From a virus: a DNA stretch of 49,808 nucleotides. The DNA lies in the IMG/VR virus record IMGVR_UViG_3300043446_005271, positions 1 to 49,808 of that record; one strand, 5' to 3'. Positions 8,036 to 36,030 of the stretch are shown here, piece by piece. How positions within the stretch are numbered: position 1 is the stretch's first letter; every line of letters starts with the position of its first letter. The notes beneath the pieces are model-generated. The model searched no databases. It saw only the letters and a list, made by a program, of their open reading frames with translations, and was not told the origin of the DNA. The position numbers and the translations under genes were made by a program.

Positions 8036-8746
8036 ATGGTTTCACATTACATTTATAAGATAACTAATACTCTAAATCAAAAAATTTATGTTGGAAAATC
8101 TAAAAATCCAAAAGTTAGATGGAGACAACATAAATCTCACTCTAAAAAAAGAAATACAAAATTATATTATGCTATGAGAAAATATGGTGTAGAAAATTTT
8201 ACATTTGAAATTTTAGAGGAGTGTTTGGAAAGTCAAGTAAATGAAAGAGAAACACACTATGTTTCTCTTTTGGAACCATATTATAATATGACTAATGGTG
8301 GTGATGGTGGGGGATTTTTAAACAAAAAACATGGCGATAAGTGGAAAAGTGCAATTAAACAAAGTAATTCTAAAAAAGTTGCTTGTTATGACTTGGAAGG
8401 AAATCTCATAAAAGTTTATGAAAGTTGTAGAGAAGCTTCTTATGATATTTTTGATAAAAACAGTAGAGGCATAGATGCTGTAACCAGAGGAGAATATCAA
8501 ACTTATGGTGGATATCAATGGAAATCTTTTGATAAAAAACCAGATTTAAAAATTAAACCGTATAAAAGAACATCGCATAAAATTAGAAAAGTTGGAAAAT
8601 ATGATTTGTCTAATAATCTAATACAAGTATATGATAGTATGTCTATTGCTGCTGAAAAAAATAATGCTTCAACTTCAAAAATAACTCTAGTATGTCAAGG
8701 AAAAAGAAAAACACACTCTGGACATATTTGGAAATATATTGTATAG
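8036..8746 (+). CDS. GIY-YIG homing endonuclease (Seg-like) with C-terminal repeats
   Basis: A 236-residue product. Residues 5-35 hold the GIY-YIG core (HYIYKIT...KIYVGKSKNP..RWRQH), followed by the family Glu region and the Asn-containing YYNMTNGGDGG. The C-terminal half has two NUMOD1-like DNA-binding repeats (YDLEGNLIKVYESCREAS and YDLSNNLIQVYDSMSIAA, each followed by a G-H/Y-x-W-K end). Such proteins nick specific phage sites to spread themselves. It is inserted between thyX and a 52-residue gene and has its own late promoter. Confidence 0.92.
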   Translation: MVSHYIYKITNTLNQKIYVGKSKNPKVRWRQHKSHSKKRNTKLYYAMRKYGVENFTFEILEECLESQVNERETHYVSLLEPYYNMTNGGDGGGFLNKKHGDKWKSAIKQSNSKKVACYDLEGNLIKVYESCREASYDIFDKNSRGIDAVTRGEYQTYGGYQWKSFDKKPDLKIKPYKRTSHKIRKVGKYDLSNNLIQVYDSMSIAAEKNNASTSKITLVCQGKRKTHSGHIWKYIV

Positions 8747-33718: not shown

Positions 33719-34000
33719 GCGAGTATGGTGGAATCGGTAGACACACCAGACTTATGAAAATTGAGCCTCATTTGGGAAACCTTGTGAGTGTAACTCCTCA
33801 AATTCGGTGAAACCTGTAAAATGGCAATACCGAGCCAAGCATCGTAAGATGAAGGTGTAGAGACTAGACGGGGAGCACCTAAACCAAAAGGTATGGTGAA
33901 GGTATAGTCCAGACCACAAACCGAAAGGGTAGTGAAAACTATAGTGGTACGAAAATCTGTTGAGCGTATGCTCGTGGGAGTTCAAGTCTCCCTACTCGCA
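33719..34000 (+). tRNA. trnL-UAA: tRNA-Leu(UAA), split by a group I intron
   Basis: Exons 33719-33753 and 33952-34000 give an 84-nt tRNA. The acceptor GCGAGTA pairs with TACTCGC, discriminator A34000, no encoded CCA. The D arm is GGTGGAATCGGTAGAC, the variable arm GAGC-GTAT-GCTC, the T arm GGGAG-TTCAAGT-CTCCC. The anticodon loop CTTAAAA gives UAA; one mismatch (C-U) closes the anticodon stem. The intron lies after U34, the exact position used in cyanobacteria and plastids. Confidence 0.92.
33754..33951 (+). ncRNA. Group I intron in tRNA-Leu(UAA)
   Basis: 198 bp. It contains the blocks known from the cyanobacterial tRNA-Leu intron: ATTGAGCC near the 5' end, GGTGAAACCT, GGCAATACCGAGCCAAGC, GGTGTAGAGACTAGACGGGG and TATAGTCC before the 3' end, and it terminates with G33951. 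The exon CTT pairs with the guide GAG with a U-G at the splice site. No ORF is inside. Confidence 0.92.
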
Positions 34001-34646: not shown

Positions 34647-35189
34647 ATGTCAAAGTATGATTTTCTTCATCAACTTGAAGAGGATGAAGAGTGTAAAGAA
34701 TTAAGAGATTACCCTGGATATTTTATTACTACGAAAGGAAGAGTTTGGAGCAGTATAAAAGGAAAGGGTAGATGGATGAGTTCATATAAACAAGGGCAAT
34801 ATTATTGGGGGGTTATGATTGGTGGAAGAAATGGTGGCAATAAACTTATACATCAATTGGTTGGAAGAAATTTTTTAAATGAATACAGAATTGGACTGAA
34901 AATCCTTCATAAAAATGAAAATCTAGATCATCCTAATATAAATTTTTTAGATAACCTTTATGTAGGAACTCAAAAAGATAATATTATAGATAAAAATACA
35001 AAAAATAGAGGAAGGCACGGCGGAAAACAACATTTGAGTATAAAGCAGGTTGAAGAAATTAAAACTATGTGGTACAATAGTAGTGGAGAAACCGTTAATA
35101 AATTTTCTACAAGAATATGTGAGTTATATGGAGTTAGTAGAACTACAATTTCTTATATCATAAAAGAAAAAACTTGGTATTATGTTTAG
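34647..35189 (+). CDS. HNH homing endonuclease with NUMOD4-like and HTH parts
   Basis: A 180-residue product. Residues 15-50 (ELRDYPGYFITTKGRVWSSIKGKGRWMS) are NUMOD4-like. The HNH_3-type core follows (IHQLVGRNFL, KILHKNENLDHPNINFLDNLYVGTQKDN), with the typical H..N..D-N-L..L..GT-Q.DN pattern. The C-terminus (LSIKQVEEIKTMW ... LYGVSRTTISYIIKEKTW) is a helix-turn-helix. This is a classic free-standing mobile endonuclease, inserted between tRNA-Thr/47-residue gene and another small gene, with its own late promoter. Confidence 0.92.
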   Translation: MSKYDFLHQLEEDEECKELRDYPGYFITTKGRVWSSIKGKGRWMSSYKQGQYYWGVMIGGRNGGNKLIHQLVGRNFLNEYRIGLKILHKNENLDHPNINFLDNLYVGTQKDNIIDKNTKNRGRHGGKQHLSIKQVEEIKTMWYNSSGETVNKFSTRICELYGVSRTTISYIIKEKTWYYV

Positions 35190-35388: not shown

Positions 35389-36030
35389 ATGAAGAGTGAG
35401 TATTTTATAGATAAGGTAGGTAAGGAAGAAATCAAAGATCTTCTTTATACCTACCATTATCTTAAAGACGAATCGAAGGATTTCAAAAGTGGATATAATT
35501 ACTCACTTTACCGCAAGTCATTCACAGACATACTTAATATTGGCGGGTCTATTGGTGCTTGCATTTTCAGTACTCTCCCAGTTCCAGAAATTGCAGTAGG
35601 AGCATTTGGACTAGAAAGAAATCAACAAGAAGGCATATACGAATTATCAAGACTTTGTATACATCCTGATATTCAAAAAGAAGAATATAATATCACATCT
35701 TGGTTCGTCAGTCGTTGTATAAGGAGATTTAGAAAAGATGCCCGCGTTCGTGCTATTCTTAGTTACGCTGACAATAATCACCACACTGGAATTATATACA
35801 GAGCTTGTAATTTTCAATACTATGGTTTGACTGATAAGAAATCTGACTTTTGGATTAAACAATTAGATGGTTCATTTATCAAACACTCAAGAGGTGCTAT
35901 CAAAGGATTAGATGGAGAGTGGAGAGAGAGGAGTAGAAAACATCGGTATTTAATGATATTTGATAGGGAACTAAAAAAACGCTTGACATGGAAAGAAGAA
36001 TTGTGGTATAATACAAAAGGCGATACTTAA
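35389..36030 (+). CDS. Mom-like GNAT DNA-modification protein
   Basis: A 213-residue product resembling the phage Mu Mom family. Visible are AVGAFGLERNQ, the YELSRLCIHPD block (84-94), SWFVSRCIR (104-112), ILSYADNNHHTGIIYRACNFQYYG (123-146) and a terminal SRKHRYLMIF (182-191). Mom is an acyltransferase-fold enzyme that modifies adenine in DNA and protects the phage from restriction. Assignment rests on these motifs, so a different GNAT acceptor is possible. A sigma70-type promoter overlaps its 3' end. Confidence 0.72.
   Translation: MKSEYFIDKVGKEEIKDLLYTYHYLKDESKDFKSGYNYSLYRKSFTDILNIGGSIGACIFSTLPVPEIAVGAFGLERNQQEGIYELSRLCIHPDIQKEEYNITSWFVSRCIRRFRKDARVRAILSYADNNHHTGIIYRACNFQYYGLTDKKSDFWIKQLDGSFIKHSRGAIKGLDGEWRERSRKHRYLMIFDRELKKRLTWKEELWYNTKGDT
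35983..36012 (+). promoter_or_regulatory. Consensus sigma70 promoter
   Basis: Perfect TTGACA (35983-35988) and TATAAT (36007-36012) with an 18-nt spacer, inside the 3' end of the Mom-like gene. Transcription from about 36019 would reach the terminator at 36055-36075 after about 57 nt. Confidence 0.65.

Follow-up and report, generated by a model that had tools for sequence, protein, structure and literature searches.

In a viral DNA fragment from IMG/VR (49,808 bases, analyzed over its whole length and hereafter called the window), a tRNA-Leu(UAA) gene at positions 33719–34000 of the plus strand is interrupted between U34 and A35 by a 198-nt group I intron (33754–33951). The fragment derives from a T4-like cyanophage, a virus of marine cyanobacteria, with genes for a single-strand DNA-binding protein, tail tube, baseplate hub and lysozyme, PsbA, PhoH and tail fibres. 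Considered jointly, the data make it probable that this is a working tRNA-Leu gene with a self-splicing intron of a mobile lineage specialized on the anticodon loop of UAA-anticodon tRNA genes, and that the lineage spreads among co-infecting phages by HNH endonuclease homing, with splicing, HNH cleavage and homing as predicted steps. The tRNA-Leu(UAA) intron is the textbook example of an ancient intron. A phage-borne, putatively mobile version at the same site, common to several bacterial phyla, makes horizontal spread testable.

ARAGORN called only a tRNA-Thr in the intact window and did not find the tRNA-Leu. When 33754–33951 were deleted it returned an 84-nt tRNA-Leu with anticodon taa, in agreement with the initial annotation, which held that the gene folds as tRNA-Leu only after removal of 198 nt. 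In the spliced gene ARAGORN recovered the 5′ exon (33719–33753, plus strand, nt 1–35), which ends in C32 U33 U34 and is the same or nearly the same in intronless phage alleles, and the 3′ exon (33952–34000, plus strand), which begins with A35 A36. Both splice sites are defined by intronless alleles of the phage tRNA-Leu gene, present in S-CAM4 and, with the exons joined, in 92 viral contigs; these alleles and ARAGORN give the same coordinates, insertion after U34 and intron length as first annotated. The tRNA-Leu(UAA) gene of the window is predicted to be a working gene.

The intron, which ends in G and holds no endonuclease ORF, was recognized by the group I covariance model, a check proposed at the outset: Rfam RF00028 (Intron_gpI) matched 33744–33933 over the full model (1–253) with 59.6 bits (cut-off 50; E 1e-12). 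The window intron alone was more stably folded than its shuffles (z -2.5). Helices P1 to P9 (all plus strand) were assigned on the window intron, and pairs were counted across an alignment of related introns. Standard pairs made up 95.3% of the pair cells in 66 viral introns, when compared with 30–40% in controls with the 3′ strand slid by 1–2 columns, and compensatory changes, on both sides of the pair, were observed in 29 of the 54 pairs across the alignment. P1 pairs exon CUU and the following A (33751–33754) with the internal guide UGAG (33762–33765) and has a U.G at the 5′ splice site; its C-G, U-A and U.G pairs were 100% conserved (181/181 introns counted). In viral introns, pairing reached 98% or more in each of the helices P3, P4, P7 and P8, and compensatory changes were present. 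For P3 (33794–33798 with 33871–33875) it was 98–100%, and four of five pairs showed such changes; P4 (33803–33808 with 33829–33834), which encloses P5, was 100% paired in the 66 viral introns; and P7, the guanosine-binding helix (33862–33866 with 33905–33909), was likewise fully paired (100%), two of its pairs showing compensatory changes. In the P9 domain (33913–33948; P9, P9a and P9b), P9b was 100% paired, and each of its four pairs showed compensatory changes. The terminal G was found in 210/210 related introns, and all group I pairings are intact in the window intron. Judged by these comparisons, the fold pattern is like that of a ribozyme under selection, and the window intron is predicted to self-splice. 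Cyanobacterial tRNA-Leu introns are classified as IC3, and alignment with them would place the window intron in the same subgroup.

To other phages we applied a pattern scan with a query that spans the 5′ exon and the P4–P5 region. It matched 105 viral contigs, cyanophages included; a search of other cyanophages had been suggested in the initial annotation. The matched contigs, two annotated huge-phage records and the window provided 94 complete viral genes; all 94 folded as tRNA-Leu(taa) in ARAGORN when spliced and none (0/94) when unspliced. Huge phages LR756501 and LR756511 (735 and 595 kb) carry a tRNA-Leu intron, and the cultured Agrobacterium phage Atu_ph07, found separately from the scan, has a 278-nt intron at the same tRNA-Leu site. 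Rfam, at its own cut-off and also at E 0.001, did not report the introns of these three phages. Such phage tRNA introns are easily overlooked because Rfam fails to report several of them, and more than 100 phage contigs with a tRNA intron were apparently passed over because ARAGORN by default also skips the interrupted gene.

A 2014 review placed all phage introns then known in protein-coding genes, despite the many tRNA genes of phages (Hausner et al., PMC3984707), and the word 'intron' is absent from the main text of the huge-phage paper. For cyanophages the initial annotation pointed to no earlier case; no paper describing such a tRNA intron was found in the open-licence literature searched, so a prior description is possible. 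In Microcoleus phage My-WqHQDG a 286-nt tRNA-Arg is annotated (L580:713–998), with group I-like signatures and no Rfam match at E 0.001; on this evidence, at least one phage tRNA intron already appears to be on record. The phage tRNA-Leu introns are a real and apparently overlooked class, with a likely homing mechanism modelled on a known precedent.

Related sequences were also observed outside canonical tRNA-Leu genes. Pelagibacter phage HTVC120P and a relative carry the same intron family in a capsid gene (L005:2950–3150 and L007:2446–2626). Four contigs (L367, L388, L391 and L402) encode UAA-anticodon tRNAs with short variable arms, an abnormal body for tRNA-Leu, and some of these have the same intron. 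Matches in crAss-like phages were set aside as tRNA introns: their neighbours are genes for helicase and polymerase, and no tRNA is annotated at these places.

A single exon type occurred in 42 intron-bearing and 92 intronless contigs. L059, with the intron, and the intronless L234 share 99.5% identity across 1,198 nt of flanking sequence, and their exons do not differ in the first 60 nt. As read from these two contigs, the difference is a recent and precise gain or loss of the intron; the pair could represent loss rather than gain.

Several introns of 670–860 nt in phages and Gammaproteobacteria carry HNH ORFs, often antisense. An 861-nt phage tRNA-Leu intron (L058) has a LAGLIDADG endonuclease in place of HNH. 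Downstream of 14 intron-bearing phage tRNA-Leu genes, an HNH gene of 153–167 codons starts at a distance of 9–49 nt, and its product is ∼50% identical to the intron-encoded HNH (E to 1e-59). The 80 closest viral HNH homologues divide as follows: 13 are within such introns (9 on the P1/P2 side and 4 antisense in the core), 22 adjoin intron-bearing tRNA genes, just beyond them, 41 are at most 200 nt from an intronless tRNA(UAA) gene and 4 are elsewhere. Because 41 of these 80 adjoin intronless genes, the HNH family tracks the tRNA(UAA) gene, not the intron alone. An exclusive link between the tRNA-adjacent HNH and the intron (14 intron-bearing contigs vs. 0 intronless contigs with the exact exons) fell, since the HNH-first search put about half of the genes beside intronless tRNA(UAA). 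In a sample chosen by neighbouring genes, the HNH was present at 2 of 12 intron-bearing and 8 of 73 intronless genes. HNH genes of the tRNA(UAA)-associated family are absent from the window, and most intron-bearing cyanophage contigs are without one nearby.

The window encodes an HNH endonuclease of another kind (34647–35189; phrog_59) ∼650 nt downstream of the tRNA-Leu gene, which is not conserved with the intron. It was rejected as a mover: it lies beside the tRNA only in L060, a contig with 100% identity to the window across 5,303 nt. A Mom-like DNA modification gene (35389–36030) has apparent homologues near 14 of 62 intron-bearing vs. 4 of 92 intronless tRNA-Leu genes.

Homing is likely the mover of the phage tRNA-Leu introns because many phages have the HNH family within such introns or adjacent to the tRNA gene. 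The proposed lineage, in phages, Pseudomonadota and some other bacteria, would be specialized on the anticodon loop of tRNA genes with a UAA anticodon. The precursor would fold around P1 (exon CUU with the intron guide), P3–P8 and P9, and guanosine-driven self-excision would leave an intact tRNA. The HNH enzyme, whose gene lies within the intron or immediately next to the tRNA gene, would cut intronless tRNA(UAA) genes; repair of the cut would copy the intron in, and the intron would then shield its carrier from cutting. By such homing the intron would move between co-infecting phages. The window copy is an ORF-less form, whose HNH would have been lost, would never have been present or would be supplied in trans.

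In the intronless tRNA(UAA) genes beside HNH, divergence is strong in the anticodon stem and the D-arm, and the variable arm is short in many of them. Of 41 such genes in one sample, 40 had departed from the canonical site. In the neighbour-gene sample the HNH was found at 0 of 26 canonical vs. 8 of 47 diverged intronless genes (p 0.044, from few and related phages). This divergence would fit immunity gained by re-coding the tRNA. We tentatively propose, as an idea that may well need revision, that the tRNA(UAA) gene of phages is contested, as the homing target of one HNH family, where safety would come from an intron that splits the site or from a replaced or re-coded tRNA body, and where all stages in the building of a mobile intron may be visible. 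The arrangements seen are HNH with intronless tRNA, HNH with intron-bearing tRNA, HNH within the intron, and intron alone. A 2023 paper describes the origin of collaborative homing as not clear (PMC10448857), and this series bears on it.

That most cyanophage copies lack both an ORF and an adjacent HNH, and that the cyanophage introns form a single clade, would also be expected if the intron had entered cyanophages once, had been inherited vertically and were now only being lost, with the HNH genes as unrelated neighbours. We consider this unlikely for two reasons. Of the 80 closest HNH homologues, 76 lie within or next to tRNA genes that have the UAA anticodon or carry the intron, and several placements with respect to the intron are seen. 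The tRNA-Leu intron family is shared by huge phages, cyanophages and members of several bacterial phyla, whose branches are mixed in the tree.

Movement that dispenses with an endonuclease appears less probable again. Free intron RNA would reverse splice into the transcripts of other tRNAs, which would then undergo reverse transcription and recombination. The lack of an endonuclease in most copies, a guide so short (CUU/GAG) that it could target several UAA tRNAs, and the occurrence of the family in the Pelagibacter phage capsid genes are in keeping with such a route, but it leaves the concentration of one HNH family on the same tRNA genes unexplained. Spread by HNH homing remains the preferred reading.

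To place the window intron, we inferred a tree of 93 introns, a step proposed in the initial annotation. Plastid introns were left out, and the root was unset because the outgroup introns from other tRNAs (L332–L334) were not added. The cyanobacterial introns formed one clade (100/100) on a stem of 1.06, with the phage introns outside. The cyanophage introns also formed a clade (96/89), and their nearest rows were other phage introns, L064 and then L058 with L109. Cyanobacterial introns can be told from those of Pseudomonadota at 17 diagnostic columns. The cyanophage intron matches Pseudomonadota in 16 of them; in column 27, in the P2 region, the window intron agrees with cyanobacteria. A Legionellaceae-labelled MAG (L164) that falls in the cyanobacterial clade, probably through binning contamination, was left out of these counts. 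The best identities of the window intron were 84% with another phage, 75% with Pseudomonadota and 67% with a cyanobacterium. The cyanobacterial-type sequence blocks claimed in the initial annotation were not borne out by the columns, the clade or the identities, although the insertion site, U34/A35, is indeed that of the cyanobacterial tRNA-Leu(UAA) introns.

In AU tests, a sister relation between cyanophage and cyanobacterial introns was not rejected (p 0.60), and nor was a single clade of all phage introns (p 0.094). A firm claim that the phage introns are unrelated to the cyanobacterial ones was dropped on the first of these values. Because of it and of the unrooted tree, our claim about lineage is limited to a position outside the extant cyanobacterial clade: the tree excludes the window intron from that clade and leaves a deep sister relation unrejected. 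These data suggest that (i) the window intron is not drawn from the extant cyanobacterial intron clade; and (ii) it belongs to a phage and Pseudomonadota lineage that is also present in some other bacteria.

Among 339 cyanobacterial genomes, 69 matched the intron pattern; all 69 had the cyanobacterial type and none the window type. CsoS2 marked the host family as picocyanobacteria. Of 121 genomes of this family, 69 had an exact intronless tRNA-Leu(UAA) gene, a looser pattern added 2, and ∼50 showed neither pattern. The hosts had been named as a place to search, and the intron pattern was found in 0 of these 121 genomes. RF00028 gave no match in 15 family genomes, which were without an exact intronless match or outside the sample of 121; in two of the 15 the looser pattern found an intronless gene. 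No evidence for movement of the window intron's lineage into chromosomes was found in the cyanobacterial genomes surveyed.

It is thus quite improbable that the phage acquired an intron-bearing tRNA-Leu gene from a cyanobacterium and that its intron is the old cyanobacterial one. The same tRNA and insertion site, column 27 and the unrejected sister relation speak for such a capture. The window intron is not a captured host intron because its columns, clade and identities are non-cyanobacterial and the picocyanobacterial genomes are without the intron pattern; in addition, the intron type differs in every intron-bearing cyanobacterial genome, and the exons match intronless phage genes. Recent host capture, raised in the initial annotation together with assembly error, is not supported, and neither is the latter, given the 105 viral contigs and the folding of every spliced gene. 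That the gene is dead, as a non-splicing remnant or an artefact of assembly, is hardly credible even on evidence drawn from sequence throughout, in view of those contigs and folded genes, the compensatory changes throughout the fold and the invariant core P1 pairs and terminal G.

The cyanobacterial tRNA-Leu(UAA) intron shares with the window intron the tRNA, the U34/A35 site, P1 (CUU with GAG) and the overall fold, but differs in 16 of 17 diagnostic core columns and is separated by a long branch. Phage tRNA-Leu introns, unlike the cyanobacterial ones, are sporadic and have relatives linked to HNH genes. Work by Vepritskiy et al. in 2002 is said to concern tRNA-Leu introns of the proteobacterial kind. 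Proteobacterial tRNA-Leu introns, already known (PMC4853749), share with the window the core signatures UUCGGKGAAACC and AUAGUCCAGACCACAAAC, and some carry the tRNA(UAA)-associated HNH family; they are chromosomal, whereas the window copy is phage-borne, short and without an ORF.

In collaborative homing, the target of a free-standing endonuclease is the intronless gene, and carriers of the intron are protected from the cut, as with F-CphI and the intron in psbA of cyanophage S-PM2 (PMC6083498). The tRNA-Leu case is similar in having a short, ORF-less group I intron, a free-standing endonuclease next door in some relatives, and an intron that would block cutting. It differs in its tRNA gene target, an HNH and not an Endo VII type enzyme, cutting that is predicted, and a window locus without endonuclease. 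The window also has a psbA gene (93–2288) with two group I introns: the first (∼371–1279) holds an HNH ORF (467–1162) 92% identical to one in Synechococcus phage S-SRM01, and the second lies within ∼2004–2216 (RF00028 match 1955–2197, 92 bits). Just downstream, an Endonuclease VII-type ORF (2360–2788; Pfam E 8e-26) has the type and place of F-CphI of S-PM2. A free-standing GIY-YIG homing endonuclease (8036–8746) adjoins a thymidylate synthase gene.

The endonuclease of the tRNA-fMet intron belongs to the PD-(D/E)XK family, not HNH. T4 SegB, a homing endonuclease of the phage tRNA region as cited in PMC10448857, is like the tRNA(UAA) HNH a free-standing phage endonuclease that biases tRNA gene inheritance, but it acts without an intron. 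The cyanobacterial tRNA-fMet intron endonuclease (Bonocora and Shub, 2001, as cited in PMC3984707) is cellular and concerns another tRNA, but resembles the tRNA(UAA) HNH in its specificity for a tRNA anticodon region.
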